Source: Pseudomonas brassicacearum subsp. neoaurantiaca
GTDB taxonomy: Bacteria > Pseudomonadota > Gammaproteobacteria > Pseudomonadales > Pseudomonadaceae
Direction of reading: 5' to 3'
NCBI RefSeq assembly: GCF_013608025.1
Contig: NZ_VDLV01000003.1
Coordinates: 62,001 to 126,000, forward strand
DNA: 64,000 nt
Below the pieces are notes generated by a model that had not been told where the DNA came from, did not search any database, and saw only the letters and a program-made list of their open reading frames with translations. Shown piece by piece: positions 10,775 to 24,823 of this stretch. How positions within the stretch are numbered: the stretch's first letter is position 1; the number at the start of each line of letters is the position of its first letter. A program made the translations under genes and the position numbers.

Positions 10775-11161
10775 GGGGTACATAAGCCAAGCGACAAGAA
10801 GGGAGTTTGCAGCCCTGAAGAGCCAGCGAAAATGGCAGTTCGGAAGTTATTCAAGCAAAGAAATGACGCCATTGAATTGTCATCTTTAAGTGCGTCAACG
10901 CGTGGTTTCAGGCGATTAAAAGATCATCAGTAGGGATAGTGTTTCAGATTGTGTCAGGTCGGCGGGGGCGCAGGCCGCGATCTAGAAGGGCCTGGGCATC
11001 CATACAGGGTAGGAATGGATCCAACTTAAAATTTGCCCACACGTTATCCACAGCTTTGCCATCTTGCAATGTCAAAGTGACCACATTATCTTGTGGGTCA
11101 TCTTGACATAAGCACTACATGTTGTGTTTTTTGGCGGGAGGCTGAGGTTTCAGTGAACACA

Positions 11162-11205
11162 GCGGGTATGCGTGCAAAGTTTGGTCGCCGCGCACACATA
11201 CCCGC
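11162..11205. repeat. Long hairpin, 14-bp stem
   Basis: The arms GCGGGTATGCGTGC (11162-11175) and GCACACATACCCGC (11192-11205) pair at 13 of 14 positions around a 16-nt loop. No T run follows, so it is not a typical terminator. It could be a structured leader, a recombination site or a protein-binding site upstream of the gene at 11345. Confidence 0.5.
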
Positions 11206-11344
11206 CTATCCCTGACCAATGCAGACACTGGTGGGACGCGCATTAGAGAAAAACCGACTTTGGATGTCAACCATTCAGCTCGGTTTTCCGCTCAAGGGGT
11301 TGCTCCTGCCTACTCAATTTTATTAGATACCGGAGCACCTAACC

Positions 11345-11599
11345 GTGCCTAAAAATACCAAAAAAACCTCGACCCCAGTGGCCAGCCTAGCCTCCAAAAT
11401 CCTGCGTAGCGATAGCTCCTCGGTTATTCAGAAAGAATTGGCAGGGTCGGCTATGGCTCAGGCCTCCAGCGGTAAACAAACCGGTGCCGACATGGAGACC
11501 AAGGCCAGTCATGTCCTCGACAGCAACAAGTACAACGCCACCACCAAGACCCTCGCGGCCTCGGTACTCGCCCAATCGAACAAAGAGCGGGGTGAGTAA
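11345..11599 (+). CDS. Small Ser/Ala/Lys-rich conserved island protein, 84 aa
   Basis: The start is GTG at 11345 with GGAG about 10 nt upstream. The sequence (MPKNTKKTSTPVASLASKIL, SSSVIQKELAGSAMAQASSG, KYNATTKTLAASVLAQSNKE) is low in aromatics and contains two similar halves ending AGSAMAQ and AASVLAQS. I recall near-identical small proteins in other gamma-proteobacteria beside the next gene's family, but could not check. It is the first of three small plus-strand genes before the TPR-HEPN gene. It may be a small helical DNA- or protein-binding factor; function is unknown. Confidence 0.6.
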   Translation: MPKNTKKTSTPVASLASKILRSDSSSVIQKELAGSAMAQASSGKQTGADMETKASHVLDSNKYNATTKTLAASVLAQSNKERGE

Positions 11600-11601
11600 A
11601 A

Positions 11602-11808
11602 ATGGCTCAGTATTTCGTCAACCGCAACGCACAGACCAACGGTGACCACGAGGTGCATACCAGTACGTGCATCTATTTGCCGGCAGTTCACAACCGCCTT
11701 GATCTTGGCTATCACACCACCTGTGCGACCGCTGTTCGCCAAGCTCGCAACACCTACCGGCAATCGAACGGTTGCCGGACGTGTTCCTCGGTGTGCCACA
11801 CCCAATAG
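11602..11808 (+). CDS. Small Cys/His-rich conserved protein, 68 aa
   Basis: The ATG at 11602 lies two bases after the stop of the 84-aa gene, so the pair is coupled. The translation begins MAQYFVNRNAQTNGDHEVHT and continues STCIYLPAVHNRLDLGYHTT, ending in SNGCRTCSSVCHTQ. Four or five Cys and several His suggest a metal-binding fold. I recall this NxNAQxNGDHEVHT...NGCxxCxxxCHT family as widespread on mobile elements but know no function. It precedes a Cas2-like small protein and the TPR-HEPN gene. Confidence 0.65.
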   Translation: MAQYFVNRNAQTNGDHEVHTSTCIYLPAVHNRLDLGYHTTCATAVRQARNTYRQSNGCRTCSSVCHTQ

Positions 11809-11902
11809 ATAGAGGCTAGACGGTAGGTCTCTGGGAGGGAGCCAGCCGCATAATTGGGCTGGCCCCATTTCATTGGTCACGAGGTTTCTAGGAGTTTGAG
11901 TG

Positions 11903-12199
11903 ATGAGCTACTTGGTTTATTGCACCTTTGATCTGAAAAACGCGTCTTCCAAAGACTATGAGAATGCGTATGCGGATCTTCAGCGGATCGGCTTAGCGAA
12001 GGTGGTCAAGGGAGACGACGGGCAGCATGTGGTCATTCCTACCACCTCTACGATGGGATTCTTTAACGGCACCAGCGTGGCGGCTGTACGGAACGATGTC
12101 CGTAACGCGGTACAAGCTGCCTTTCGAGCACGACTTTTCAAATCTGAGATCTTCGTTGTTGTCGGTGGTGATTGGGCTTGGGGCGCAGTGACGACGTAG
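11903..12199 (+). CDS. Small Cas2/SinR-like ferredoxin-fold protein, 98 aa
   Basis: I place the start at the ATG at 11903, 8 nt after TAGGAG; a GTG one codon earlier is possible. The pattern MSYLVYCTFDLKNASSKDYE, then ADLQRIGLAKVV, then GTSVAAVRNDVRNAVQAAFR and SEIFVVVGGDWAWG follows strand-helix-strand ... helix-strand. That is the ferredoxin-like layout of Cas2, VapD and the SinR family. No CRISPR array or other cas gene is in the window, so a CRISPR role is not implied. It is the third small gene before the TPR-HEPN gene. The fold assignment is my inference. Confidence 0.5.
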   Translation: MSYLVYCTFDLKNASSKDYENAYADLQRIGLAKVVKGDDGQHVVIPTTSTMGFFNGTSVAAVRNDVRNAVQAAFRARLFKSEIFVVVGGDWAWGAVTT

Positions 12200-12261
12200 A
12201 TACTCTGGATTTCCATTAAGTGGCCTCAGTTGTAACGCCCATATCAAAGAAGGCGTTTTGT

Positions 12262-13803
12262 ATGTTGAGCAAATTTTCGGAACTCTCATCACACCTCAAT
12301 TCCCTGGTGGATGCTGACCCCAACCTTGCGATACAAGAAGCTCGTGACCTCGTTCTAGATGGGCGGGATCGTTTAAATATGATGTCCCTCCGTGCGGCTA
12401 CTCTGGTCAATGCCGGCGCCTCGCTTGGTCGTAAAGATGCAATCGATGAGGGCCTTGAGCTATACCGCGAACTTTACGACTTGTATCCGACGGCAGACAT
12501 CACTTACAACTTAGCAAACGGGCTAGTTGAATCAGCGAGTTGTGGGAGCGCTGATTCTAAATGGTTAGATCATCAGGAACAGGCTCGGGCCTACAGAGCC
12601 GAAGCTCGACGATGCTATTGGAGGGTGGTGCAAGACGTAGATGCCGATGTGGAATTACGCACGCAAGCCTGGACGAACCTCGCTAATTTGTTCGCAAAAA
12701 CCTACCGGCTTTCTGAGGCTCATGATGCCCGCCTTTCTGCGCTAAAGGTTGATCCAAAAAACGGCGTCGCCGCATTCTGCGCAGCATTGGATCTAATGTG
12801 GCTTTATAGGCGTGGAGGCTGCTCAGAGCTAACGCACATGGAAGCCGTGATGTTAGCCAAGCAAGCGCTTCGACATAGGGAGCGAATTGTTCAGTATGCC
12901 GGTGAAAGCGTCGCAGCTAATGTTGAAGCGCTAGCCAGTGAGCTAGGCGATCCTCCCTCGCGCTCTCAGCACATCAATCCATTCACTAGGTGGGTTGAAG
13001 AGGAACGTCTTACGCTTGCCCCTGCGGTAGAACTCGTCGATCCATCCTTGGGCAAGCTCGACTGGCTTTCCCTTCCAGGTATTCTCGAGCGTGAACCAGA
13101 AATGGGCGGGAGGCCGCCGCCATTGTTCGCCATGTTCAATATGCTGAAGAGCGATTTTGTTCTCGCACGGGATTTGGCATGGCGTGCAAGTGATGGAAGC
13201 GTTTGGCCGAAAACAGGCCAGTATGCGGACACGCTCGACTACGCAATGTATGGCCCTGATACCTCGGCACTCATACTGGCGCATCGAACAGCCCTTGACC
13301 TGCTCGACAAGGTGGCCGTAACGGCGAACTATTATTTCGAGCTTGGAGCAGCTCCTAACAAGGTCAGTTTCGGAAGGCTGTGGAGAGATTCCGCAGACAA
13401 GAAAACAGGTACTCCGCTCGCAAAAAAAGTGGAGGCACTGATTCGTGCAGGCGTATACGCAATGTACGGCCTGGCCGAGCTGGCAGAAGACTATGACGGT
13501 ATAGATGGAATTCTCCGCTCACAGAAGGATCTGCGAAATTCGGGTACGCACCGATTCGTAGTGCTTCATGACCTTGGGGATCCCTCGCAAGCGAGGCAAG
13601 CCCCTGAAATCGAGCATCTCAACCGCTCAGATTTTATCGATGAGGCCTTGCGTGCCCTTCGGGTCGCGAGAGCTGCAATCCAGATGCTCGCACTGGCAAT
13701 TTCCCAGCAGGAGGAAATCCTGAGAAAGCAAACGGATGGCCTTATCGGAACAATGATCGTTCCTGATCACCACTGGATTCGCGGTGAAGATGAGGAACTC
13801 TGA
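12262..13803 (+). CDS. TPR-HEPN protein (LA2681-like HEPN ribonuclease)
   Basis: I place the start at the ATG at 12262, 8 nt after AGAAGG, giving 513 aa; a GTG at 12220 adds 14 residues. The N-terminal half is a row of TPR-like helices (LELYRELYDLYPTADITYNL, TQAWTNLANLFAKTYRLSEA). The C-terminal third is a large HEPN domain of the LA2681 kind with the RNase motif R425-N-S-G-T-H430. HEPN proteins with intact RNxxxH cut RNA in toxin-antitoxin, abortive infection and CRISPR-linked systems. A sensor-plus-RNase arrangement fits dormancy-type phage defence. The three small genes upstream may hold or sense its activity, which is inferred from order only. Confidence 0.75.
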   Translation: MLSKFSELSSHLNSLVDADPNLAIQEARDLVLDGRDRLNMMSLRAATLVNAGASLGRKDAIDEGLELYRELYDLYPTADITYNLANGLVESASCGSADSKWLDHQEQARAYRAEARRCYWRVVQDVDADVELRTQAWTNLANLFAKTYRLSEAHDARLSALKVDPKNGVAAFCAALDLMWLYRRGGCSELTHMEAVMLAKQALRHRERIVQYAGESVAANVEALASELGDPPSRSQHINPFTRWVEEERLTLAPAVELVDPSLGKLDWLSLPGILEREPEMGGRPPPLFAMFNMLKSDFVLARDLAWRASDGSVWPKTGQYADTLDYAMYGPDTSALILAHRTALDLLDKVAVTANYYFELGAAPNKVSFGRLWRDSADKKTGTPLAKKVEALIRAGVYAMYGLAELAEDYDGIDGILRSQKDLRNSGTHRFVVLHDLGDPSQARQAPEIEHLNRSDFIDEALRALRVARAAIQMLALAISQQEEILRKQTDGLIGTMIVPDHHWIRGEDEEL

Positions 13804-13865
13804 TCCCTTGGAGCAGCCGGAGCATTCGGTCAGCGTCGTATTCTTTATTGATATCTAGGTGAGCA

Positions 13866-14864
13866 GTGAACTCTACTCAGCAAAAAAAACGCCATCACTT
13901 TGTCCCCAAAGCGTATCTCAAAGCGTTCGCGAATCAGGGCGGCCAAGTTCTCGTTTACCGTAAAGACAACCCTGGTCGGGCGCTCCCTGCCAGGCCAGAT
14001 ACAACGCAGTTTGAGCGCTATTACTATTCGCAACCGCTACCCGAAGGCGGTCAGGACAATAACACCCTCGAAGACATCTTCTGTGAGGTAGAGTCCGCAT
14101 GGCCAGCCCTTGTTGAAAGGCTGGCTCGGAAAGACTCCATAAACGATGACATTGAGCCCTTCATCCAGTTTGTTGCGCTTCAGCGAGCTCGTGTGCCTGC
14201 GGCGCGAGATGCGTTTGAGGCGGGGTTGGCGGCAACCGTTAAGGACACGATGAAAGTGCTGGTGAGGAATGGAAGGCTCTCACCGCCACCCCTAGGTTTT
14301 GAAGACATCCTCGACAAGGTAGAGGTGTCCATCGACCCTCATCAAAGCCTTCATGCGATGCCTGGCCTTATCAAGAAGGTCGGCGAGCTTTTCGATACGG
14401 TTGGCCTGGCCATCATCCATAACACGTCAGACGTGCCGTTTCTCACAAGCGACAATCCAGTCGTTTGGTACGACCCATCAATTCCAATTGAAAGCCAGAA
14501 TCCCTATAGCATTTCCCCTGATGGGCCGATAGCGATCCAGTTCCCCATCAGTCCACACATGATGTTATTTGGAGTGAGAGAATACCGAGAGCGCTACTGC
14601 AGGGAGGGGCTTATGCATGGTGAGATACCTGACGTTGAATGGGTACATTATGTAAACACCCAAACCTGTCGCTTCGGCTATGGAGCTGTCATTGCCCAAA
14701 AACCAGGACAGGAGGAAGTTATTCAGGCGCATAGCGCGCTGTCCCCGGTGTTCGACCACTCCTCGCTGGAGTTCGGCGCCCAGACAGTCTCAATAGGTAG
14801 GTTCGTCTTCGGATCACGAGAAGCCAAGCCAAAGTGGATACCTCACAAAGATGAATCAGCCTGA
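13866..14864 (+). CDS. DUF4238 protein, 332 aa
   Basis: The GTG at 13866 follows TAGGTGA. The N-terminus KKRHHFVPKAYLKAFANQGG then VLVYRKDN is the DUF4238 signature. The family's later DVPFLTSDNPVVWYDPS region and a FPISPHMMLFG strand are also present. The middle is helical (IQFVALQRARVPAARDAFEA). The family is widespread on mobile elements, and its biochemical activity is not known to me. It follows the TPR-HEPN gene by 62 nt and probably shares its transcript. A second, more divergent DUF4238-like gene is at 8015-8821. Confidence 0.85.
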   Translation: MNSTQQKKRHHFVPKAYLKAFANQGGQVLVYRKDNPGRALPARPDTTQFERYYYSQPLPEGGQDNNTLEDIFCEVESAWPALVERLARKDSINDDIEPFIQFVALQRARVPAARDAFEAGLAATVKDTMKVLVRNGRLSPPPLGFEDILDKVEVSIDPHQSLHAMPGLIKKVGELFDTVGLAIIHNTSDVPFLTSDNPVVWYDPSIPIESQNPYSISPDGPIAIQFPISPHMMLFGVREYRERYCREGLMHGEIPDVEWVHYVNTQTCRFGYGAVIAQKPGQEEVIQAHSALSPVFDHSSLEFGAQTVSIGRFVFGSREAKPKWIPHKDESA

Positions 14865-14984
14865 ACTCGTGCGGCGTCCGGAGCTTTCTGCAGTCGATGG
14901 GACACGGCATTAAGAGGCATGAACATATTCTGAGTATCAGGATTATCTATTGGTGGCACCCCCTACAGCGCAAGCGGAGCGCGC

Positions 14985-15085
14985 CGGCCCGCGAAGGGCC
15001 AAAGGCTTGAGGATGGACGCCCGAAGGGCCAAAACCGGCGCAGACGGGGTTTGGTTCACGACAGCCGCACCCCGAAGGGGGCAAG
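14985..15085. repeat. GC-rich tract with repeated CGAAGGGC units
   Basis: GCGAAGGGCCAAA (from 14991), CCGAAGGGCCAAA (from 15021) and a shorter CCCGAAGGGGGC (from 15071) recur within about 100 bp. The tract is much richer in G/C than its surroundings and lies between the convergent DUF4238 gene and a small minus-strand gene. It may mark the join of two island modules. No gene is called here. Confidence 0.4.
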
Positions 15086-15118
15086 CCCAAAGCGGATGCA
15101 CTGTGAAACGACATCAAG

Positions 15119-15334
15119 CTACGGGGTAGGAAGGTGGCCGAATGCCTCGCGAAACAGGCTCTGCACCATGACCGAGGCAGAGCCGTGGAGAAAATACTCC
15201 TGACCGCTGATATCGAACCGCACTGGATTGACGTGAACGACAGTCGCCCCCGAAGCCCAAGGCACGTAGCGATGCTGAGCATCCTTCGATTGCTGAGCTA
15301 AGGTGCCGGTATCATGAACGTTGCGGATGCCCAC
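15119..15334 (-). CDS. Small hypothetical protein, about 71 aa
   Basis: The GTG at 15334 gives 71 aa. The C-terminal half GATVVHVNPVRFDISGQEYF, then SASVMVQSLFREAFG, looks like real protein, while the N-terminus is less certain. No ribosome binding site is obvious. It lies 82 nt downstream of the six-gene recombination operon and might be its last gene, or a truncated remnant next to the GC-rich repeat tract. No family is recognised. Confidence 0.35.
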   Translation of the reverse strand: MGIRNVHDTGTLAQQSKDAQHRYVPWASGATVVHVNPVRFDISGQEYFLHGSASVMVQSLFREAFGHLPTP

Positions 15335-15416
15335 TCAAATGAGGCTAACCGCAGGAGGCGCACACCGACTACCCAGCGCTCAGTCTTAATTGGGGGGGAG
15401 GGAGAGGGGATGGTTG

Positions 15417-16253
15417 TTATGGCCATTCACTATCCATCTTGAAGGCGAGGAGTTGATTTCGGATAGCTTGGTTCTGCATGAACAGCAGGATGTCGAAAAC
15501 CCGGCCAGGTGTGTCTTGCAGCCCCTTGTGGTTGCTCCCCTGAATCCCCTTTACGAACACTTCCTGGTGTAGCCTCCAGCAGTGCCCCAGATAAAATGGC
15601 AACTCGCAGATCCGACGGCCTGCGGCTTGCTGCGCGTTTCTGGGAAGTAGCTGTTGTCCGGTGAAGCCAGCTTTCCCTGCTCGGGTTAGGCCACCTCTCA
15701 CCCGACTATCCAGGGCCGGCAACAGTCCGGTGATGAGAAGCAGGGCTTTCATGGGATAAGTGACGCGGGTGTTGTTGATAAACAGCACATCCGCCAGCGT
15801 ATTCAGGATCTCCAGAATTTCCTGGTCGAAGGCTCCAACATCATTGAGTGGTGCATCGCTGTCCAAGAGACGATGCCCCTGTAGATTGAGGCTGAAGGAC
15901 GCAAGGCTCTGCTGGCTCAATCTGAGTAGGCGCCCATGAAGCTGTTTGTTCTTTAGAGCACTTTCGATTTGCGGGACGCGGCGAAGCATTGGGCTTCTCC
16001 GTCTGCAAGCGCCCCAGTTGCGCAAGGCTGTAGATAGCGCCTGGGCGAGTAGGGCTGCATTTGCGCTGCCCGACGGCGCATTGAGATATCGACGTGCAAT
16101 CGATTGCACGTTTGCGAAGTCCTTATGGTAGGACAGCCTGAAATCGTTGATGGCTGATGTGATATCGAGGGAGCTGCCAACCAGTCGAAGCATGTTTTCC
16201 ATCACAGCCGAAGGAGGAGAAACGAGTGTGTAATTTACCCTGTAGCTGGTCAA
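15417..16253 (-). CDS. Hypothetical protein of the recombination operon, about 278 aa
   Basis: The frame opens at a TTG (16253). Internal ATGs at MENMLRLVG are possible starts, so the N-terminus is uncertain. Another frame just upstream (MIMSPALNTDHLGLQLDQLQ) could be the real beginning if there is a frameshift. The protein is helical, with no catalytic motif seen; YPMKALLLITGLLPALDSRV and RICELPFYLGHCWRLHQE are its most protein-like segments. It follows the RecD2-like gene by 92 nt on the same strand. It probably serves the same mobile element, but its function is unknown. Confidence 0.55.
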   Translation of the reverse strand: MTSYRVNYTLVSPPSAVMENMLRLVGSSLDITSAINDFRLSYHKDFANVQSIARRYLNAPSGSANAALLAQALSTALRNWGACRRRSPMLRRVPQIESALKNKQLHGRLLRLSQQSLASFSLNLQGHRLLDSDAPLNDVGAFDQEILEILNTLADVLFINNTRVTYPMKALLLITGLLPALDSRVRGGLTRAGKAGFTGQQLLPRNAQQAAGRRICELPFYLGHCWRLHQEVFVKGIQGSNHKGLQDTPGRVFDILLFMQNQAIRNQLLAFKMDSEWP

Positions 16254-16345
16254 GCTGTAGCCCCAGATGATCAGTATTTAAGGCGGGCGACATGATCATG
16301 GATTGACGAAGATACCGTCTCTGCCTTCCCACTTCAGGCCGCATT

Positions 16346-18187
16346 CTATTCAACAGTTGGCGTGATCCGTTGCATCGAAACGCCCACTACTGAGGCCCCG
16401 GCATTTGACAGGTCATGTGCGAAGGCTCCCACCAAATCGACACCGTACTCTTCGACCGCCCGAGCAAGTCCCAACATTCGAGCCACGCCGGCAACCACCA
16501 TCGCGCGCCTTACCCCGGCGTGCAGCGCATCATCGATGGTCATGGCGGCTCCAAGGGCGCATACAGATTCCCTCACCGTCTCCGTGTCGATCCGCCAGTG
16601 TCTCCCCTGAGTCTCGACACGCAAGCCCCGGTCATCGGTCGAGACCAACCTGGCGTAGCTAACCCGTTTGGGAAGCGTCTGTTTGAGGAGCAGTCGATCT
16701 CCCTTTGAGTAGGTGTCCCACTGCGTTTCCAAGGCCACTGGTTTACCACGCTCGCGCACTAACTCGTTGATCACCTCGCAGAGTTGGTAGCTGTCGCATA
16801 TGGCGACAAGGTTGGGATCAGCCTGCAGTCCCGCGACAGCTTGATCCAGAGACGAATGACCTGACGGTAGGCTTGAGATAGCGCCAAGAGGCGGCTCAAT
16901 GTGGTGACTGGGGAAGTAGCCTTGGAGCTGATTAACAATGCGGCTATTCAAGCTGCCGTCGACTGCAGTTTTTTGGTTGCAAAGAAAGATGACCCGGTCA
17001 CAGGGGGTGAAGTGGCCTAGAAGCAGGGATACTTCCACCGCGCTGTACCATTGAAAGTCCCAGACAATAAAGGTTCGGTACTCGCCTCGTCCCGCAGGTA
17101 TAGATTCCCAATTTACCAGATGGCCTTCGGAGCCATACCGCCCAGATAGACCCTGATGAACAATACCCGGTTCAGAGCCTCCTAGAATCTGCAGAATGGA
17201 AGAAAACTCGTCACAGAACGACGAAGCCGATTCGTTACTTGAGTAAGTGAATATGGAAAACCGCGAATTAATCGCGTCACCAACAAGCTGGCCGTGGTCA
17301 GAGTCATTGAGGGCTCCGTATAAGCTGGAATACCGGACGTAGGCATACTCGATCTCGCGGTCGGAGTACGTAGGAAAAAAGGCATGAGTTAGCGTCTGGA
17401 GTTGCGAGCGTATTGAACTCTGGATCAGGTGGTGGCCCATGAGTTGAAAATTATCATGGTGTCCAACAACCAGATTCTTGTCCAAGCAATCAGGTAGCGC
17501 CGACCTGAGAGACGCCGGGAGATCTAAGGCATTCAGAACCGTTGCCCCCCGCTTGGCGTCGGTGAGCATCTTGGTGATTAGCTGATAACTGGGAGTGCTC
17601 GCGAGCTGGCTGGCGGTCGAGGAGTTGTCCTGCAAATGTCTAATACCCAGGAATGGAAACGCTTTGGCGGGTGTCTCAAATAGTGCACGAGTGCCTCCAG
17701 GGCCATGGAGGTGGCAGATATTAAGCGCCTGATAGTGACAAAAACCGGATTCAAGCATGAAGGTGGCTGCATCGAAGAGGCAAGATTGACGATGGAAATG
17801 ATAGGCCAGCTGACTTGCATACGGCTCAGAGATGTACATGCACAGAGCTCTGTGATCCTGCTGTTCCAACGCCAATAGTGCGGCTGAGATACCTTGGGTA
17901 CTCAAAGCCAGGAGCCTAACTTGCTCGCGCCTTGGTAAGTACAGTTCTGGCAAGTAGAAGTGGTGCTTGACCAGCAGGTGCCAATGAGCAGCAGAGGTCG
18001 ACGTAAGCGTAAAATCTATCCTTTCTTGAGAACGTCGCACGCCGTATGTTTTGCCTAGCAGGATTGCCGTCGTTGGTGCGCGTTCAAGCCTGAAGACCAC
18101 GCGCCGTTGATTCCATGGTAATACACCTTTGACGACTACAGTACCGTCAAGGCGGTGTATCACTTTAACGATCAAAGACGTCGCCAT
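16346..18187 (-). CDS. RecD2-like protein with degenerate helicase motifs, 613 aa
   Basis: Residues about 95-185 have the helix-hairpin-helix layout of RecD2: GISAALLALEQQDHRAL, then DAATFMLESGFCHYQALNIC and FETPAKAFPFLGI. The same slot in RecD2 reads as FLxxHGVS...IY..YG...ENPY...GIGF. The helicase core follows, but Walker A is replaced by FSIFTYSSNESASSF (about 310-324), Walker B by FIVWDFQWYSAVEVSLLLG (373-391), and the GDxxQL motif by VIFLCNQKTAV. A C-terminal LGAAMTIDDALHAGVRRAMV sits where RecD has YAxTxHKxQG. I read it as an SF1B helicase relative that lost ATPase activity and may serve as a DNA-binding factor. It starts 3 nt after the previous gene ends, so it is coupled to the recombinase operon. 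Confidence 0.55.
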   Translation of the reverse strand: MATSLIVKVIHRLDGTVVVKGVLPWNQRRVVFRLERAPTTAILLGKTYGVRRSQERIDFTLTSTSAAHWHLLVKHHFYLPELYLPRREQVRLLALSTQGISAALLALEQQDHRALCMYISEPYASQLAYHFHRQSCLFDAATFMLESGFCHYQALNICHLHGPGGTRALFETPAKAFPFLGIRHLQDNSSTASQLASTPSYQLITKMLTDAKRGATVLNALDLPASLRSALPDCLDKNLVVGHHDNFQLMGHHLIQSSIRSQLQTLTHAFFPTYSDREIEYAYVRYSSLYGALNDSDHGQLVGDAINSRFSIFTYSSNESASSFCDEFSSILQILGGSEPGIVHQGLSGRYGSEGHLVNWESIPAGRGEYRTFIVWDFQWYSAVEVSLLLGHFTPCDRVIFLCNQKTAVDGSLNSRIVNQLQGYFPSHHIEPPLGAISSLPSGHSSLDQAVAGLQADPNLVAICDSYQLCEVINELVRERGKPVALETQWDTYSKGDRLLLKQTLPKRVSYARLVSTDDRGLRVETQGRHWRIDTETVRESVCALGAAMTIDDALHAGVRRAMVVAGVARMLGLARAVEEYGVDLVGAFAHDLSNAGASVVGVSMQRITPTVE

Positions 18188-18190
18188 TAG

Positions 18191-18595
18191 TTAGTCCACT
18201 ATCAAACGCTGGTTGTAAAGATCCTTCCAGCGCGCCTGGCTTTTTAGTAGTTCCCTCTTGAGTTTTTCATTATCTGATAAAACCTTGTGGAGCGAAACGT
18301 TGAGTTTTCCAAGTTTTGGCGGAGTGGAGGATGACACGCAGTTTGCCAACACCGAAGCGTGGGTATTTAGAAGACTAACAATCGCTCGCATATCATCATG
18401 TCCTCGACCTGGATAAAAACACTGGCGCGTACAACCCACCAGCGCGGCGAGGGACGAAAGATTTACTTCGCCATGATGCAGCATCAGGCTTTGGCCGCTG
18501 CGTAAAATCTCAACTACGACCTTCTGGAGCTTTATAGCCTTTGTGTTCCCAACTGGCATTTTCAATAAGATTTCGATGAGAGTGTTAACGTCCAT
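18191..18595 (-). CDS. Small HTH/coiled-coil protein of the recombination operon, 134 aa
   Basis: The N-terminal half contains an HTH-like segment (LSSLAALVGCTRQCFYPGRG) and the C-terminus a coiled coil (KVLSDNEKLKRELLKSQARW). This resembles the small accessory proteins (TnpC type) that accompany paired tyrosine recombinases of the Tn554 kind. It overlaps the 185-aa gene by 11 bp and is followed after 3 nt by the RecD2-like gene. A role in assisting recombination is inferred from context. It could alternatively be the true GmtX. Confidence 0.6.
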   Translation of the reverse strand: MDVNTLIEILLKMPVGNTKAIKLQKVVVEILRSGQSLMLHHGEVNLSSLAALVGCTRQCFYPGRGHDDMRAIVSLLNTHASVLANCVSSSTPPKLGKLNVSLHKVLSDNEKLKRELLKSQARWKDLYNQRLIVD

Positions 18596-19142
18596 TTTTC
18601 CACTCCAGATAGACTTTGCAATTATTATTGGTTGATACTAGCTCATCTTCCTCCGAAAACGTCTCCAGGTTATATAGAGCGCCATCTTTGAATTGTAGGT
18701 TTCTCTGGCATTTCAAAATGTCATCAATAAACATGCAAAGGCTATCTAGGTCGAATTGCCTTGGATCGGACTTGGCAATTTTGGGTGCCACCAATGCCAG
18801 TTTGTTGTGCGGGGTTTTCAGCTCTTTTTCTAGGATGGAGACCTTTCGGGTGAGCTCAATATTCCGAATCTTAAGCGCATCGACTGAAGGTTCGTCGGTT
18901 TCCTTTCTGCCTCTTGAAACTAAATCCTTAATGTATTTGTTTAGTAGCTTTCGATGTTCGCTTGTAGGCTTGCGAAAGATAGAAGGATCAATGTCCAACT
19001 GCTTGCCAACTTCTAGCGTGAGCCGGTTAATCGAGGGGAACGGCTTCCCCTTTTTGAGAAGTATTAAACAGCTCTCGATGCCTCGGAGAGTATTGGCAAG
19101 CTGGTTTGCCTGGTAGGCAGCGCAGTTTGGTTTTCGCTTCAT
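18585..19142 (-). CDS. gmtX: Gamma-mobile-trio protein GmtX (probable)
   Basis: This is a 185-aa protein whose ATG overlaps the stop of the large integrase gene (TAATG). It has an N-terminal helical part (SINRLTLEVGKQLDIDPSIF), a basic LVSRGRKE segment and a coiled coil (LKIRNIELTRKVSILEKELK). In the GMT islands I recall, two tyrosine recombinases (GmtY, GmtZ) are followed by a small protein, GmtX. The size, order and overlap fit. No catalytic motif is seen, so a DNA-binding or bridging role is likely. The next gene (134 aa) has a similar HTH/coiled-coil layout. The assignment is from memory and order. Confidence 0.6.
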   Translation of the reverse strand: MKRKPNCAAYQANQLANTLRGIESCLILLKKGKPFPSINRLTLEVGKQLDIDPSIFRKPTSEHRKLLNKYIKDLVSRGRKETDEPSVDALKIRNIELTRKVSILEKELKTPHNKLALVAPKIAKSDPRQFDLDSLCMFIDDILKCQRNLQFKDGALYNLETFSEEDELVSTNNNCKVYLEWKNGR

Positions 19143-22100
19143 TAAAGGTGACTGCCGATTGGGAGTGAATTGGAGACGATGCGGTCGGCAATGTCCGCCA
19201 CGGACAGGTTCATAGTCTTCATGATTGAAAGGACTTGCCCAGCATATTTGTCCCGGTCAGAATCCTGAGCAATGGCCATCTTAAGTAAGTCAGGGTTCTT
19301 GGCGATTTTTTCAATCATGTAGGGATAGTTGTGCGATGTGAATTGAGGGTAATCCTGGCTGTCTAGCAATTGAGCTATCACGCGTTGTGCAGGATTGTTC
19401 ATGTCAATCTCATGAGATTGGAAGTCTTTCAGATCCCGCATTCTGGTGATCAGTCGTGGCCCAGTAGCGTCCTTCTCGAGACGATCTTTTAAAGCCTGCC
19501 TAACAAGGTGGTAGCTACCTAATTCAAGCTTCGCCACGGTCAGCTCGTGATGGACTGCATCGATTTCGTGTCTGTTTGCTTTGCTTGCCTTGAGGCTCTT
19601 AAGTTTGCCCACCAGGCTTTCCGATTCGCCAGTCAGTTTTCTGATCAGGCAGTTTATCGCAGGCAAATGGTCGATGCCGAAAGCGGCAATCGGGCACAGC
19701 CCACAGACTCTAGATCTGCCAGTGAAATCGATGAGGTTTTTAGGGCAATTCCCGTTTTTAAGGCAAATACAGTTTGAGTAAAAGCCCACGTCTGGATCTT
19801 TGTCTGAGGCAATAATTTGCATGCCAGTCTTTTCGTGCTCAATAACTGCTGAACTTACGCTGATAAAATTCTGATCTTGGGCCAGTTTGTTTCGGTCTAA
19901 GCGCCAGCCGGAGCTAATCGCATTGGGCGTCATATAGGTGCTGCTGGCAGCAGGCATCATCTGCGACCAAGCGCTATGCATTATAAGCTTGTTGGATTCC
20001 GAAATCGCCTTAATCGACTCGGAGATGTCCGGGATGGTGTAGTAATCCGTGGTATAAGCGTTTTTATGAGCGACTTGCTGCTGAGCAACTCGAATGTCAA
20101 GGTGGCCATAGATCCGAGCGTGGGTGAGCCAGGTAGCCCTCAGCGAGTGTGGTGTATGGACAGACTTCATTTGTCCGTGTTTGTTATAAGTAACGAATTG
20201 ATGATGGCGCTCTGTAGGAACTAGGCTGTTGTAAACATCCTGTACGCCATATAGTAATTGTGTCCATCTTTCGGAGTAGTTCGAGTCAGAAAAGGGCAGT
20301 GCATGGCGATTCCAAGGACTGCGGAATAGGGAGTGGATTTCTCCATACTCTTTAGGATCTGTAGGGTCATTTTCATAGTACGTCGGAAGCAGCGGGCTTT
20401 GGAAAACCTTGCGCTGAAAATGCCGCTCAGCGATCAAGGAGTCCATGACGTCATCGGGAATCACAACTGGACGATCTTGCCCGTCTTTATCTGTATTAAC
20501 ATAAAGAATGCAGGAGTTGAGTATTCGATGCTCAGGCTTGCTAAGTAGTCTGTCGAATGTATTGATATCGAGCCATTGGCAATTTTGAAGGCGCAAGCCA
20601 CCATGCAGGGCGATGGATAGCATCCTCACGACGCTTATCCAAGGCATGTAAACTTCGGTACTTGCGGCTCCATACAGGCCGGAATACCATGAGTAAACGT
20701 TGATGATGCGCGTAACTGGAATAACCAGCGCGTCATTTTCGTCGTCAGGATTACTGATCTGGATTTCGTGACTTAAACCTAGTTCAGATAGGTCGATCCA
20801 CTCTGCTCGTCGAACTTCATCCAGTTGATCGCCTTTAAGTTCGCCCTTGAGAATCTGCTGCTGGAGGGATAGGCCGACATGTTCAACCGCTTGGAGGTAC
20901 GCTTTAGCGATTACGGTTGAGTCGAGAGGCAGGGGCACCTTGTCGGTGCTCCCCCGTGCGCCGCTTCCTGAGCGATCAAACAGGAGGCTGACTGGATTCT
21001 CGAAACCTTTCTCGACCACCCATTCACCGTCGGCTTTAACGAACGCGTTGTTCTTTATTATAAGTTCAAAGAACTCATGAATTGTCGCGACGAAAGCTGA
21101 CTTGGTCTTGGGAGAGAAAGTCATATCGTATATCTGGGTAAGCGTGCATGGAAGAGTAATTCCGCTGATCGGGTGGCCAAAATCAAATAAGCTGCTGTTT
21201 AGTTCATCTTGAGAGATGGTGTTATTCCAAAAAAGAACTCGTTCGAATTCGGATGGGCGCAGAGGGAAGCACACCAGTGTGTCAGGGTTCTCTTCTAGCC
21301 ACATCGGTAAGTAGCAAAGCAGGTAGTCCAAAAGTAAGAAGATGGCCCTGATTTTACCTTTTCGCGTTTTGGTCGCGTGATTATGCTTGTCCAGATAAAC
21401 AAGATAATAATTTGCGGCAGCTAGCCAAAATTTGGATAGGTTGCAAATGTTAACGTGTTCACGGCCTGGATAATACGTGCTCTTGAGCCAGCTAAAATTT
21501 TTGGTGGTGCGCTCTGGTTTGGGCGTTAGCATGTAGCGCTGTTCGACCGTCAAATCTTGTTGTGTCGAGATTTGTTTGGCAATCGTTGCATCCTTTACGC
21601 GCCTTGTAATTGCCGTTGTTTTTTTTGCCCAGTCAGATTTGTAATTTCGTCTGGCACGCTCACGCTGTTTTGGCGTCATCTCCACCGCGTCCTCGAACGG
21701 GACTGCGAAATAGTCCTTGAACTCCTCAATGCTCATTTTGAAGTCGTGGGCGGAGATGGATGCAGTGGATTTTGCCTGTAGATATTGGTGGTATTTTTCT
21801 AGATTATAGGCATCTGCAGGCGATATGATCGTCGGGTGTCTGGCTGCAAAGGTTTTGATCCAGGGGAGGTAGCGGAAAACTTTCGGGTCGGGCACACGGT
21901 TGTCGCAAACACTGGGTGCAGCTTCCCATAGTTCTTCAAGGCTTACATCCTCAGCTTTAAGCCAGTTAGTTCTGTATTGAAAGACCCTGGAAGCTCTGAT
22001 GGTCTCTGGGAAACCCTGTGAGTGCTCGTAGATAAAGCCTTTACTTAGCGGTTCGAGGAGAGGGAATTTTGACCAAATACCTTGGAGTTCAAATGTATGA

Positions 22101-22492
22101 GGTAAGGTCGCTAGGCCTTTCGACCACAAGATCGCAAACATTGCCCGAAAAGATACCCGTAACCCTATAGCGTCTTCAATGATGATAGGTAGGCGTCCGG
22201 TAAGTTTTTCATAAAGCGTGCTTGCGCCGGAAGTGTCTTCTGTTTTAATTAGTGATAGGTCATACATCAAGTCGAGCTGGGTTTTGTTGATTTTTTTGAA
22301 GCCTGTTAAACTTTTAAGAATGAAAAGCGAAAACCTACTTCGATCTTGTCGGCTGGAGCTATCCAAGGCTTGATCAATTTTATTTCCATACTCCTGGCGC
22401 ATTTGTTCGCAAAGTGTATCAAAGGCCTCGCGCACCTCTTCCTGGATGTTCACGTTTGGAGCTAGGATGACTTTTTCGGAGGTGTTAATCAT
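19142..22492 (-). CDS. gmtZ: Gamma-mobile-trio integrase GmtZ (large tyrosine recombinase)
   Basis: This is an 1116-aa protein. The C-terminal half has tyrosine recombinase residues: Arg634 (LHGGLRLQNCQWLDI), His782-x-x-Arg785 (HTPHSLRATWL), His809 and a Tyr at 817 or 818 (VAHKNAYTTDYYTI). About residues 905-935 hold a Cys cluster (CICLKNGNCPKNL, RVCGLCP) that may bind zinc. The N-terminal 550 residues are a large helical region without known motifs, unusually long for an integrase. Its ATG overlaps the stop of gmtY by 4 bp and its stop overlaps gmtX. Length, order and motifs fit GmtZ of GMT islands, which carry defence and T6SS cargo. Confidence 0.75.
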   Translation of the reverse strand: MINTSEKVILAPNVNIQEEVREAFDTLCEQMRQEYGNKIDQALDSSSRQDRSRFSLFILKSLTGFKKINKTQLDLMYDLSLIKTEDTSGASTLYEKLTGRLPIIIEDAIGLRVSFRAMFAILWSKGLATLPHTFELQGIWSKFPLLEPLSKGFIYEHSQGFPETIRASRVFQYRTNWLKAEDVSLEELWEAAPSVCDNRVPDPKVFRYLPWIKTFAARHPTIISPADAYNLEKYHQYLQAKSTASISAHDFKMSIEEFKDYFAVPFEDAVEMTPKQRERARRNYKSDWAKKTTAITRRVKDATIAKQISTQQDLTVEQRYMLTPKPERTTKNFSWLKSTYYPGREHVNICNLSKFWLAAANYYLVYLDKHNHATKTRKGKIRAIFLLLDYLLCYLPMWLEENPDTLVCFPLRPSEFERVLFWNNTISQDELNSSLFDFGHPISGITLPCTLTQIYDMTFSPKTKSAFVATIHEFFELIIKNNAFVKADGEWVVEKGFENPVSLLFDRSGSGARGSTDKVPLPLDSTVIAKAYLQAVEHVGLSLQQQILKGELKGDQLDEVRRAEWIDLSELGLSHEIQISNPDDENDALVIPVTRIINVYSWYSGLYGAASTEVYMPWISVVRMLSIALHGGLRLQNCQWLDINTFDRLLSKPEHRILNSCILYVNTDKDGQDRPVVIPDDVMDSLIAERHFQRKVFQSPLLPTYYENDPTDPKEYGEIHSLFRSPWNRHALPFSDSNYSERWTQLLYGVQDVYNSLVPTERHHQFVTYNKHGQMKSVHTPHSLRATWLTHARIYGHLDIRVAQQQVAHKNAYTTDYYTIPDISESIKAISESNKLIMHSAWSQMMPAASSTYMTPNAISSGWRLDRNKLAQDQNFISVSSAVIEHEKTGMQIIASDKDPDVGFYSNCICLKNGNCPKNLIDFTGRSRVCGLCPIAAFGIDHLPAINCLIRKLTGESESLVGKLKSLKASKANRHEIDAVHHELTVAKLELGSYHLVRQALKDRLEKDATGPRLITRMRDLKDFQSHEIDMNNPAQRVIAQLLDSQDYPQFTSHNYPYMIEKIAKNPDLLKMAIAQDSDRDKYAGQVLSIMKTMNLSVADIADRIVSNSLPIGSHL

Positions 22493-23868
22493 GCGGCAAT
22501 TCGCTGCGAAAGATCATAGGCAAGCTCGGCGTATATAGCGGATCTGATCTGATCAATGTGAGGGTTTCGTCCCCATAAAGCTTTCATACGTTCTGCCGCC
22601 TCGATTTCAGCGATTACGGTTTCTTCGCTGAGTCGTGCGTACTTTTCCGTCGATCTTATGTCCTTGTGGCCCATCAAAAGCTTTATCTCGGACAAGGTAA
22701 GCCCCATCTGATTACGACCGGGGATGTAAACAAAGTTTCTTGCCCATACCCCGTAAAAATGCCTCAGGCTGTGAGAGGTATAAGGCGCCCCAGTAGCAGG
22801 TGAGATAGTGCCAAGATCCACCTGCGCCTTCCTCAAGGCCCTATTCAGATTCCTGTTGAGCGAATTCATATTCCTCAAGAGAAGCATGGACTCACCGTAT
22901 GTCTGTCTTTCGTTCGAAACGAATAGATAGTCACTGTCGGTCGTTGGCCGTACATCCAGATAGTCAGCCAGAGACTCAAAAAACAGGCTCTTGAAGGGCT
23001 CGAACATTACAATGGTCGCAAGTGTTCTGCCTTTGAATGGCAGCTTTCTCGCTGCTTTCTCCGCCGCAGGGTTGCGGTGGAAGTTAGGATCTTCAATCCG
23101 GATGGTACGCGAATCAATATCGATGTCCGACCGTCTAATCCCCCAAACTTCTGAATGGCGTAAGCCGCCTGCGGCAATCATTGCGGCAGCGCACCTGCAT
23201 TGAGGGTCTTCAATGCTATTGAGTAGCGTCAGAACATGTTCAGTGGGGAAATTCCGACTAACGTGAGAGCTTTTGACCTTACCGCCGGGAATGCCGCCAG
23301 GGGCGTAAGCATGGGCATCCTTAGGTGTATTGCCGAATGTCAACGTGTTGTTATGAATGTTGTCCATTTCGGCTTTGGTGCGCCGTCTGTCCTGCGTTTG
23401 GGGTAGAGACATGACGTTGGCGAATGCGTCGCTCTTGGTGAGGATCCGAATGAGGGATGCCAAGTCATTGAGCTTCATTTGGCTGGTGCGAAGGAAGTCA
23501 TTAACCCCGGCCAAATACTTTTGAGCACTCACAGTTTTGACTGGAGTCTTTCCCAGGGCTTTAGCAGCTCGGCGCACGATGAAGTCAGTGCTGTTAACCC
23601 CTTTGGTCAAAAACTCCCAGTACAGGTTAATGGTCTTTTGAGCGACTTCGGGTGGCATGGGCTGGCCCCCCATCACACCTGTTTCGTAGCAGTAGTCGAA
23701 GAAATGAGCTACCGAGCTGCAATATTGGTAGGGCACAGATTCACCAAACGCATGACCCACTTCTTTCGTCTTGTATCCCGCATACCTGTTGAAGGCGTCA
23801 ATCGGGCGTTCGGTGGCTACCTCGAATAGGCGGGGTGTGTCCATCTGAATGAGGTAAACATGCTTCAC
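22489..23868 (-). CDS. gmtY: Gamma-mobile-trio recombinase GmtY (tyrosine recombinase)
   Basis: This is a 459-aa protein with the complete catalytic set: Arg237 (AAGGLRHSEVWGIRRSDID), a beta-hairpin Lys (KLPFKGR), His366-x-x-Arg369 (SHSLRHFYG), His401 (LLMGHKDIRSTEKY) and nucleophile Tyr410. The N-terminal 200 residues form the core-binding domain. It is the first gene of a six-gene coupled minus-strand operon and stands about 680 bp from the tRNA-Gly site where the island ends. The GMT assignment rests on the pairing with a very large second recombinase and a small third gene. An ordinary phage-type integrase would normally be alone. Confidence 0.8.
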   Translation of the reverse strand: MKHVYLIQMDTPRLFEVATERPIDAFNRYAGYKTKEVGHAFGESVPYQYCSSVAHFFDYCYETGVMGGQPMPPEVAQKTINLYWEFLTKGVNSTDFIVRRAAKALGKTPVKTVSAQKYLAGVNDFLRTSQMKLNDLASLIRILTKSDAFANVMSLPQTQDRRRTKAEMDNIHNNTLTFGNTPKDAHAYAPGGIPGGKVKSSHVSRNFPTEHVLTLLNSIEDPQCRCAAAMIAAGGLRHSEVWGIRRSDIDIDSRTIRIEDPNFHRNPAAEKAARKLPFKGRTLATIVMFEPFKSLFFESLADYLDVRPTTDSDYLFVSNERQTYGESMLLLRNMNSLNRNLNRALRKAQVDLGTISPATGAPYTSHSLRHFYGVWARNFVYIPGRNQMGLTLSEIKLLMGHKDIRSTEKYARLSEETVIAEIEAAERMKALWGRNPHIDQIRSAIYAELAYDLSQRIAA

Positions 23869-24550
23869 AGGGCTCTCCTTCCGACCTGGAGGGCCCGAGC
23901 TGACAGCCGGTTATCTGCGCTTGGGAATGGAGAAGACTGACAATTCTGTGTAAAAACATTAAGCATATATTGACGCGCCAAGGCATGGTGGTGTATAAAT
24001 TAATGCCGAATTCTACGCATCTAGCATTTCAATTGTGTAATTCCTTTTTGGAATTAAAACTTTACTTTTGGCTGTGTTAAGGAATATAGGCGTTTCGAGC
24101 CTTCCGTCATTCGTAGATTTATGGGAAGTCGCTTATTCCCTCCGCAGTTTCTTTGGCAATAACTCCCACATCATTCGCGTCTCTTGTCCGGTTCCCTGTG
24201 CTCGATAAGCCAGACATCCGTCGGGCACGCTGCTGTGCGAATGCTGTATGGGCTTAGAGCTCTCAGTGGAGTTTTGTAGGTTGTCTTGGTCTGATGCGCG
24301 ACGGAGGTTCTCTATGATTTCCTGCCTCATGCAGGTCTCACTGCCTAGCGTGTATTCACTGCGTCCGATAGTTACCGTTTGGCGTGCGTTTCAGGGTTTC
24401 TTTATTCACAACTTGATGTGATCGCGGATGGTTGTTTATTGGCGCGGAGGGAAGGGGGTGTGCGATTGGAAAGTAGGTTGGGATGGAGGGAATGCTGATC
24501 AGGGATCAGGGAGGGGAAGTCCATATTTGCTGGGGCGTGGTGCTGTGTTG
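23869..24550. other. Island end region between gmtY and tRNA-Gly
   Basis: It holds the A/T-rich promoter region of gmtY. A plus-strand TTGACG and TATAAA pair 18 bp apart lies at about 23968-23997, and a short hairpin AATTCC-T5-GGAATT at 24039-24055. An unconvincing 65-codon minus-strand frame is at 24133-24330. Recombination sites are expected here, but no clear direct repeat is visible inside the window. Confidence 0.4.
24133..24330 (-). CDS. Possible small ORF, 65 aa
   Basis: The frame reads MRQEIIENLRRASDQDNLQN and ends MWELLPKKLRRE. It is charged and soluble, without a good ribosome binding site. Its place between the recombinase operon and the tRNA site is where an excision factor might sit, but nothing in the sequence shows that role. 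Confidence 0.2.
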   Translation of the reverse strand: MRQEIIENLRRASDQDNLQNSTESSKPIQHSHSSVPDGCLAYRAQGTGQETRMMWELLPKKLRRE

Positions 24551-24624
24551 TGGAGCGGGTAGAGGGAATCGAACCCTCAACTAAAGCTTGGGAAGCTTTC
24601 GTTTTGCCACTAAACTATACCCGC
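24551..24624 (-). tRNA. tRNA-Gly(CCC)
   Basis: The minus strand forms a full cloverleaf: acceptor GCGGGTA/TACCCGC, anticodon stem AAAGC/GCTTT around the loop TTCCCAA (anticodon CCC), T arm GAGGGTTCGATTCCCTC, discriminator T and an encoded CCA. It is intact. It lies 42 bp from a truncated second tRNA-Gly(CCC) with different D-arm and anticodon-stem bases. The intact copy is on the island side and may have been brought in to replace the disrupted gene. Confidence 0.95.
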
Positions 24625-24666
24625 ATTACACATATTTCTTTGCTCACAAAACGGGATGTCCTATAA

Positions 24667-24720
24667 GAACCCTCGTTATCAGCTTGGGAAGCTGGAGTAA
24701 TGCCATTATACGACACCCGC
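24667..24720 (-). pseudogene. Truncated tRNA-Gly(CCC), 5' part only (island junction)
   Basis: The minus strand reads as a tRNA-Gly from GCGGGTGTCG through the D arm, the anticodon stem-loop CAGC-TTCCCAA-GCTG and the variable loop. It stops being tRNA after GAGGGTTC in the T arm. The expected GATTCCC... and acceptor 3' strand are missing and replaced by unrelated sequence. This is the usual look of a tRNA gene used as an integration site, with the missing 3' part expected at the other island end. Confidence 0.8.
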
Positions 24721-24823
24721 TCAGAGCGGCTGACTTTGTACCAGATGTCGCCTTGGATTTGAAGTTTTTCTTTCCGGACGGTGAGGTTGTCCGTCTGCGC
24801 AGGCCTCAAAGCAGAGCGGTCTT

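Follow-up and report, generated by a model that had tools for sequence, protein, structure and literature searches.

Gamma-Mobile-Trio (GMT) modules carry defence cargo, as does the island described here. In the tRNA-dependent lysogeny described for actinobacteriophages, the phage replaces a whole host tRNA (PMC10865867). Tn552-II is described as carrying a copy resembling its target gene, which its authors suggest may rescue the disrupted target (PMC9345347, PMC10214605, PMC12486829). We analysed a 64,000-nt stretch of the Pseudomonas brassicacearum subsp. neoaurantiaca genome (the window), one locus of which appears to be where a 46.7-kb genomic island with defence cargo has its integration end. 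We consider it probable that a five-gene module inserts this island at a core within the host tRNA-Gly(CCC) gene, breaking that gene, and that the island supplies a replacement. The cargo of the island includes Gabija and Shedu genes, and its parts in the window are as follows.

1..24666, no strand assigned: right-hand part of the 46.7-kb island, which extends 22 kb left of the window
2869..4350, minus strand: Shedu SduA, island cargo
12220..14864, plus strand: HEPN_LA2681 protein (12220-13803) and DUF4238 protein (13866-14864), island cargo

A five-gene recombinase module

All six open reading frames reported in the initial annotation are present on the minus strand.

22489..23868, minus strand: Y, 459-aa tyrosine recombinase, GTG start (from the ORF list, family models and alignment)
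19142..22492, minus strand: Z, tyrosine recombinase of 1116 aa whose catalytic domain is followed by a conserved cysteine cluster (from the ORF and alignment)
18585..19142, minus strand: X, accessory protein of 185 aa occupying the gmtX position, without a GmtX match
18191..18595, minus strand: 134-aa accessory protein with a predicted helix-turn-helix and coiled coil
16346..18187, minus strand: 613-aa protein with a RecD2/Dda-like SF1B helicase fold lacking Walker A (pseudo-helicase)
15417..16253, minus strand: 278-aa protein, TTG start; cargo, outside the module

As previously described, every junction but the last overlaps or touches: Y and Z overlap by 4 nt, Z and X by 1 nt, and X and the 134-aa gene by 11 nt, with 3 nt between the 134- and 613-aa genes. 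The gap between the 613- and 278-aa genes is 92 nt, and the sixth gene is therefore uncoupled. The proposed trio order, a pair of tyrosine recombinases followed by a small third gene, was also borne out. The catalytic motif of tyrosine recombinases is R-H-R-H-Y, which is fitted by R237/H366/R369/H401/Y410 of Y and R634/H782/R785/H809/Y818 of Z, each set invariant in a 12-sequence alignment of that protein. Pfam Phage_integrase matched Y at 48.0 bits (cut-off 27.1) and Z at 18.4 bits, under the cut-off.

The order of recombinase, large recombinase and small gene is that of GMT. Against the NCBIfam models for GmtY (NF040693, cut-off 340 bits), GmtZ (NF047926, 600 bits) and GmtX (NF040692, 40 bits), Y scored 34.1 bits and Z 50.3 bits, and X matched no family at E 0.001, GmtX included. 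The proteins tested from trio-only relatives likewise fell below the curated cut-offs. A genuine GMT in genome G515 passed all three (GmtY 508.9, GmtZ 765.1, GmtX 210.9 bits); it ends 3 nt before a greB gene, and the 19.9-kb stretch around this one example contains neither a 134- or 613-aa homologue nor a tRNA. Because Y, Z and X miss cut-offs that G515 passes, we rejected the GMT identity first assigned to the locus; by the curated models, the module appears to be a distant cousin of GMT. The GMT name is thus left nearly without a match, and the coupling of the 134- and 613-aa genes stands.

Among 398 Pseudomonas genomes, the order Y-Z-X-134-613 was found, with some exceptions, in 16 islands; because it is seen again in other genomes, it is not a chance arrangement. 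Each of these 16 islands carries both the 134- and the 613-aa gene, and none of the seven testable trio-only relatives has them; of 13 named GTDB loci, 12 have both, and the remaining one reaches the contig edge just after Z. The GTDB scan, which found at least 13 loci, used only two peptide patterns, so that this number is a lower bound, and ten of the 13 are apparently contigs already in the 398-genome set. Homologues of the 278-aa protein occur in 6/398 genomes, with the module in only one of these, P. brassicacearum subsp. neoaurantiaca itself. The 278-aa gene is absent beside the module in 14 other loci examined, and the 613-aa gene is absent from the five other genomes carrying a 278-aa homologue. 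On these grounds a six-gene module was rejected. The initial annotation had assigned all three extra genes to the recombination machinery; counting their homologues after X upholds this for the 134- and 613-aa genes and not for the 278-aa gene. As delimited by sequence comparison, the conserved module is five genes (Y, Z, X, 134 aa and 613 aa), not six. The 613-aa and Z proteins had no match in plasmids, Z alone and the Z profile had none in IMG/VR, and the module proteins had none in PADLOC and none in PHROGs apart from integrase matches of Y and Z. A Z profile at E 1e-8 found nothing in 228 other genomes of the class, where remote relatives may be missed since the queries were all from Pseudomonas.

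The model of the 134-aa protein had no PDB match at E 0.001, and comparison of X with the 134-aa family gave a probability of 49%, which is suggestive only. For the 613-aa protein (model pLDDT 68), the best Foldseek match was RecD2 with an E value of 1.4e-9 but a TM-score of 0.19-0.22; VIA Z was 11.9 against Dda (rmsd 11.6, 275 aligned) and 11.1 against RecD2 (rmsd 11.8, 280 aligned). The modelled structure thus indicates an SF1B, RecD2/Dda-like fold. Unlike those helicases, the family lacks the Walker A pattern (0/15 members), and where we place the P-loop, the model has a two-residue turn between a strand (310-315) and a helix (318-334).

Two other readings of the module were weighed against this evidence. 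That it is a divergent but true GMT module with three added genes, as first proposed, seems very unlikely: the Y-Z-X order and overlaps are the same as in GMT, and Y matches GmtY, as Z does GmtZ, weakly yet significantly, but the scores reach a tenth of the curated cut-offs or less, X has no GmtX match, conservation extends to just two of the three extra genes, and G515, the single genuine GMT examined, has neither these genes nor a tRNA in its stretch. The 613-aa protein might instead be an active helicase that unwinds DNA in island transfer or replication and not an accessory factor of recombination, as its SF1B fold and the presence of RecD2, RecD, TraI and Helitron helicases among its best structural matches would suggest; with Walker A missing in 15/15 members and a two-residue turn at the modelled P-loop position, we regard this as extremely unlikely.

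A split tRNA-Gly gene and its replacement

At its right-hand end the island adjoins a broken tRNA gene.

24735..24763, minus strand: TTCAAA - 17 nt - TACAAA, probable promoter of the host tRNA, picked out by eye
24667..24720, minus strand: host tRNA-Gly(CCC) nt 1-54, cut in the T-arm
24667-24673, minus strand: recombination core AGGGTTC, the last 7 bases of the host 5' part
24625..24666, minus strand: 42-nt island spacer from the break to the replacement tRNA, starting with the att arm TTATAGGACA
24551..24624, minus strand: complete replacement tRNA-Gly(CCC) with encoded CCA, island-borne
Outside the window, contig C50:39930-39956 (L036:17929-17955): host tRNA nt 48-74

The host gene is split after nt 54 at the 7-bp core, and neither island junction rebuilds a whole tRNA; for this reason, ordinary insertion with restoration of the tRNA 3' end was rejected. 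At empty sites in three relatives, the host flanks join with a 7-bp overlap at the tRNA. The replacement tRNA-Gly(CCC) differs from the host copy and lies 42 nt past the break, in line with the host leader. A strict consensus promoter scan did not report the putative host tRNA promoter.

That the tRNA-Gly(CCC) at 24551-24624 is a replacement beside the broken host gene had been missed in the initial annotation. No further CCC copy was seen in this genome, where the other matched tRNA-Gly carries anticodon TCC. Where tRNA-Gly(UCC) reads GGG, cells may manage without tRNA-Gly(CCC), and the need for a replacement is therefore uncertain.

The layout recurs in other islands

All 16 five-gene islands interrupt the host gene after nt 54, have a complete tRNA-Gly(CCC) 41-45 nt further on and show matching end motifs. 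L049 and L052 also show this layout; it was not seen in the examined stretch of L045. Both junctions were found in 15/16 islands (one junction in G263) and the orphan tRNA 3' part in 15/16 genomes (not found in G263), in four cases on another contig or the other strand (G166, G256, G325 and G390). The module lies within about 3 kb of the replacement tRNA in 10/16 islands, at about 7 kb in G390, 24 kb in G074, 37 kb in G112 and 39 kb in G358, and on a separate contig in G166 and G256. As the two are not always adjacent, the pairing of module and site rests on both sharing one island. Three trio-only relatives have the same layout at tRNA-Ser(UGA), and 5/8 have no split-plus-complete tRNA beside Y. 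A pattern scan of IMG/VR returned seven stretches, with a junction in three (L120, L123 and L125); the other four look like chance.

Island-type tRNA-Gly alleles occur in 176/368 Pseudomonas genomes. As a control for scars, we sampled 30 loci with an island-type tRNA-Gly, picked regardless of the module, and compared each score with 500 shuffles. One is a known island (L156, in G358). L138, in G037, is a clear scar (score 22, reached by 0/500 shuffles; spacing 96; arm motif present), in which the old 5' half has decayed and the replacement tRNA is intact at the same 96-nt spacing, with no module gene in the 39 kb downstream of it. L150, in G043, is a possible scar (score 16, 0/500 shuffles, spacing 90) without the arm motif. 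L159, in G344, was suspected by eye and rejected, 110/500 shuffles reaching its score. No trace of the old half was found at 27 of the 30 loci, L159 among them, so island-type alleles are also ordinary host alleles.

These observations bear on two further readings. The replacement tRNA could be mainly a landing pad, renewing the attachment site and letting islands accumulate at one locus, with tRNA function secondary or irrelevant. All 16 replacement tRNAs retain the GAGGGTTCGATTCCC T-arm, in 6/16 islands the interrupted host gene is already of the island type, and in G112 one more island left end abuts an island-type tRNA 3' part, as a tandem insertion would leave it. The T-arm alone would suffice for this purpose, yet all 16 islands carry complete tRNAs with CCA and an intact fold (judged by sequence, and by ARAGORN in the stretches to which it was applied), which represent several alleles and without exception are aligned with the host leader, and in G037 the replacement tRNA outlived the module; we therefore think this reading unlikely. 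Still less probable, and in our view very unlikely, is that the split and complete tRNAs were left by earlier insertions of phages or islands at a crowded hotspot, with no causal link to the module. tRNA-Gly(CCC) is indeed a hotspot: the tRNA 3' part from nt 28 lies behind foreign DNA in G038, the junction in three IMG/VR contigs (two with the same sequence at the site) lies behind only the last portion of the tRNA 5' half, and 7-39 kb separate module and tRNA in four islands, all of which would fit such a history; against it stand the recurrence of the layout in 16/16 five-gene islands with its 41-45 nt spacer and matching end motifs, its presence at another tRNA in three trio-only relatives, and the 30 module-blind loci, where the old half was seen only in the known island and in two genomes without it, one clear and one possible.

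A proposed mechanism

The DNA itself shows the order of the genes, the two junctions, the empty site, the short core and the replacement tRNA. In the mechanism we propose, recombinases Y and Z, with X, the 134-aa protein and the RecD2-like 613-aa pseudo-helicase as accessory components, would recombine the island att site, an inverted repeat TGTCCNNTAA / TTANNGGACA flanking a core of about 7 bp, with the identical 7 bp in the T-arm of host tRNA-Gly(CCC). Y and Z would catalyse integration, and X and the 134- and 613-aa proteins would assist the reaction. Because the island arms do not resemble tRNA, insertion would break the host gene, leaving it as nt 1-54 and nt 48-74. The replacement lies 41-45 nt inside the broken 5' end in the same direction, so transcription from the host promoter probably continues across the dead half into the replacement tRNA, which would make good the lost host gene. 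Because the replacement retains the T-arm core, it would also offer a fresh landing site.

More tentatively, and with slightly less than even confidence, we suggest that these islands form a Pseudomonas defence-island family in which a five-gene machine with a pseudo-helicase subunit destroys a single-copy tRNA gene and places its own tRNA behind the native promoter, so that the island is costly to lose, the next landing site is offered and decay leaves the tRNA permanently exchanged. If so, such islands would be one driver of tRNA-Gly(CCC) allele turnover across Pseudomonas.

The locus offers a testable case of a non-phage island taking over a host tRNA gene and apparently its promoter too, with anti-phage cargo (Gabija and Shedu) tied to an insertion that may be costly to lose. 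It may represent one mechanism of bacterial tRNA gene exchange, with the caveat that 27/30 sampled loci lack the old half. In the five-gene module, the recombinases gain two partners not assigned before, one of which has a helicase fold but no ATP site, and accessory genes of multi-recombinase elements become testable. Island finders relying on a restored tRNA at the junction may misinterpret islands of this kind.

Comparison with known systems

The module resembles GMT in its coupled pair of tyrosine recombinases and small third gene, with Y and Z matching weakly; it differs in scoring no higher than a tenth of the cut-offs, in lacking GmtX, in having two further conserved genes and in belonging to an island that splits and replaces a tRNA, whereas no tRNA lies in the stretch of the one genuine GMT examined, that of G515.

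The features of tRNA-dependent integration are found here: a short core (7-bp overlap), a broken host tRNA, no rebuilt junction and, in 16/16 islands, an element-borne complete tRNA of the same isotype. The actinobacteriophages, as described, likewise use a tyrosine recombinase and a core in a host tRNA (about 8-11 bp in the phages), leave a junction without a rebuilt tRNA and supply a tRNA of the same isotype (PMC10865867). They are described with one integrase, in contrast to the multi-recombinase, non-phage island here, and the tRNA of phage Fionnbharth has its own promoter (PMC10865867), whereas the island tRNA lies 41-45 nt behind the break, aligned with the host leader. Rhizobium phage vTRX32-1 is similarly reported to use a 12-bp core in tRNA-Leu and to carry a whole replacement tRNA-Leu; that replacement lacks the core motif, which its authors take to block further insertion (PMC8631192), whereas the core is retained in 16/16 islands here.

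SE, GInt and Tn554/Tn552-II elements share several recombinase genes with small accessory genes, inverted-repeat ends and a 6-7 bp spacer, and are set apart in their published descriptions by other gene sets and gene orders (intA-tfp-intB-srap for SE, ginA-D for GInt and tnpABC for Tn554); the word 'tRNA' is absent from the main texts on these elements (PMC9345347, PMC10214605, PMC12486829). Whole-tRNA replacement is thus known in phages, and its combination here with this machinery and layout looks like a new variant.

A five-gene recombination module in a defence island

The window carries a five-gene recombination module resembling the Gamma-Mobile-Trio (GMT; gmtY-gmtZ-gmtX); the defence island that houses it splits a host tRNA gene on insertion and supplies a replacement. 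All six minus-strand ORFs and their junctions have the coordinates and overlaps first described, the last junction (613-aa/278-aa), unlike the rest, being a gap of 92 nt. The initial annotation had added three genes to the trio; this holds for the 134-aa and 613-aa genes, both present at 15 of 15 loci, and fails for the 278-aa gene, whose protein has matches in 6 of 398 Pseudomonas genomes, with the module only in its own. This protein (window 15417–16253, minus strand) has no family match, and its relatives in five other Pseudomonas genomes lie outside the module; three of these five matches pass through one stop codon, so the real start may lie downstream of the TTG, or those copies may be broken.

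Relatives of the 613-aa protein occur in 15 of 398 Pseudomonas genomes, own genome counted. In the window and 14 other loci, homologues keep the order Y-Z-X-134-613, with four exceptions: L032 (genome G166), whose contig begins within the module, with Y and Z found on a separate contig (L093); L034, where X was not detected; L030, with broken Y and Z; and L033, with broken Z. The Z profile (A1) at E 1e-20 recovered 24 of the 398 genomes, namely the same 15, G051, which has all five genes, and eight weak ones. All 13 named relatives from a GTDB scan are Pseudomonas, and 12 of these loci carry all five genes, L054 ending 104 nt past Z; judged by their length, ten are contigs already counted, the new ones being L045, L049 and L052.

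Distinction from genuine GMT and trio-only relatives

The identification of the module as GMT was rejected: against the curated models GmtY reached 34.1 of 340 bits and GmtZ 50.3 of 600, far under the cut-offs, and GmtX had no match. Among 143 genomes of the class, one (G515) passed the GmtZ cut-off, with GmtY at 508.9, GmtZ at 765.1 and GmtX at 210.9 bits. Its 19.9-kb stretch contains no homologue of the 134-aa or 613-aa proteins and no tRNA. A complete greB (L134:12571–13656) begins 3 nt past its gmtX, and the G515 island is perhaps at, or carrying a copy of, its insertion gene.

The eight weak Z-profile loci, which we call trio-only relatives, have Y-like and Z-like ORFs followed by an ORF of 163–255 aa. 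The profile identified this ORF as X in four of the eight, L092 among them at no better than E 0.004, and L088 has a short Y ORF. With every filter switched off, no 613-aa homologue was found in any of them; matches to the 134-aa profile were weak (best E 0.025), and none was positioned after X. As the contig of L089 ends right after X, the extra genes are found in 0 of 7 testable loci.

Insertion splits and replaces tRNA-Gly(CCC)

The window corresponds to C50:62001–126000 in a genome of 6.17 Mb. GC content is 0.47–0.56 left of 24 kb in the window versus 0.57–0.66 right of 25 kb, and the low-GC stretch continues past the left end, where a further 60 kb was examined. In relatives G010, G005 and G002 tRNA-Gly(CCC) is whole. 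In the own genome, nucleotides 1–54 lie at window 24667–24720 and nucleotides 48–74 at C50:39930–39956 on the same contig, 46.7 kb off. Left- and right-side matches share exactly 7 bp, AGGGTTC (the core), in these three empty sites; in G010 the left side matches inside the tRNA alone, in the other two also over about 80 nt of host flank. The 5' part and the module are separated by a complete tRNA-Gly(CCC) that includes CCA and shares 77% identity with the split gene.

In all 16 five-gene islands the host tRNA ends at nucleotide 54; then come a spacer of 41–45 nt, starting with TTA, and a complete tRNA-Gly(CCC). TTANNGGAC stands directly past the break in 14 of 16 (absent in G051 and G366). The same break and complete tRNA occur in L049 and L052; none was seen in the L045 stretch. 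The tRNA 3' part was located in 15 of the 16 genomes (none in G263). In 11 it shares contig and strand with the 5' part, at a distance of about 29 to 68 kb; in G166, G256, G325 and G390 the contig or the strand is a different one. Module and replacement tRNA are no more than about 3 kb apart in 10 of 16 islands; the distance is about 7, 24, 37 and 39 kb in G390, G074, G112 and G358, respectively, and in G166 and G256 the two are on different contigs. The orientation of the module is reversed in G038 and G263.

At the left end, two TACAC copies precede the core by about 25–40 nt in 14 of 15 cases (TACAC and TACGC in G390). The right-end core equals the host core, and the left-end core departs from AGGGTTC in 11 of 15 (AGAGTTC, AAGGTTC, ATGGTTC, ACGGTTC, ACGGGTC). 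By analogy with Tn552-II and Tn554, which carry a core from their former site according to PMC12486829, these variants fit a core brought from a former site.

Several loci have other arrangements. One strand of G112 (L115 and L116, C1:716560–780089) carries a single split host tRNA-Gly, a single complete replacement and a pair of 3' parts 5.5 kb apart, one island-type (resembling alleles carried by islands) and one host-type, which looks like two tandem islands or a composite. L120, L123 and L125, filed as viral in IMG/VR, contain the island junction GAGGGTTC|TTATTGGACA together with a replacement tRNA-Gly. Upstream they have just the final portion of the tRNA 5' half, preceded by foreign DNA, an arrangement that would arise if the island had integrated next to another element's end. 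L117 (G038 C33:224214–224260), a tRNA-Gly(CCC) 3' part from nucleotide 28 behind foreign DNA, is the end of a different element, whose target seems to be the anticodon region of this same tRNA.

Trio-only relatives L085, L086 and L091 have tRNA-Ser(UGA) broken after GGGTTC (GAGTTC in L091), then TTATCTAA, with a complete tRNA-Ser(UGA) 62–64 nt past the break. Two of these three genomes (G337, G246) have the tRNA-Ser 3' part elsewhere; in a fourth relative (G015, L087) it adjoins the module. No junction of split and complete tRNA was seen in the stretches analysed for L088, L089, L090 and L092. Because trio-only relatives share this layout, it is independent of the 134-aa and 613-aa genes.

Origin and expression of the replacement tRNA

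Of 368 Pseudomonas genomes, 176 have an island-type tRNA-Gly(CCC) allele. Among 30 sampled loci, 27 have no trace of an older tRNA half and 26 have, by eye, a host-type leader just ahead of the tRNA, so these alleles are ordinary there, and islands may simply have acquired their replacement tRNAs from other lineages. The split gene itself is island-type in 6 of 16 islands (G026, G256, G325, G358, G385, G390); in G358 the 54 nt are identical to those of the G051 island's tRNA, itself a common host allele. The gene is strongly polymorphic genus-wide, G011 being island-type at the site where its close relatives G010, G005 and G002 are native type.

A host leader with TGGTACAAA or TGGTAAAAA lies upstream of the broken gene at 17 of 18 junctions read by eye (not L052); a strict consensus scan found no promoter. 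The own genome's other matched tRNA-Gly has a TCC anticodon. G037 still has the host leader and the arm TTATTGGACA. Its old tRNA half is decayed, scoring 22 against the native half where the best of 500 shuffles reached 16; the replacement tRNA is intact, with the 96-nt spacing unchanged, and a search of 39 kb downstream revealed no module genes. This state is expected if the replacement became the working gene.

The 134-aa and 613-aa proteins

An AlphaFold2 model built for the 613-aa protein from 11 sequences (pLDDT 68) matched RecD2, RecD, TraI and Helitron helicases by Foldseek (best E 1.4e-9), with TM-scores of 0.11–0.23 among the ten best matches. A second structural comparison gave Dda (Z 11.9, rmsd 11.6, 275 aligned) and RecD2 (Z 11.1, rmsd 11.8, 280 aligned), the domain packing of the model being untrustworthy. 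A Walker A pattern was found in 0 of 15 family members. The 134-aa protein, as we read its prediction, is a helix-turn-helix with a coiled coil, and had no PDB match at E 0.001. Both proteins would shape the Y–Z–DNA complex as architectural or directionality factors.

Island cargo

The cargo search covered 14 of the island's 41 non-overlapping ORFs of at least 100 aa, five of the 41 being the module (L035, one of the stretches analysed):
L035:950–4085, Gabija GajA (795 bits) and GajB (628 bits)
Shedu SduA (565 bits)
HEPN and DUF4238 proteins
L035:6302–8865, a 650-aa protein with a caspase domain and its 204-aa neighbour, left of the window and possibly a further defence system

Comparison with known systems

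We found no description of the split-and-replace tRNA layout in multi-recombinase islands in the open-licence literature. Whole replacement of a tRNA-Leu is described for Rhizobium phage vTRX32-1 (PMC8631192). The nearest principle to the split-and-replace insertion of the island is tRNA-dependent lysogeny, demonstrated experimentally for actinophages (PMC10865867).
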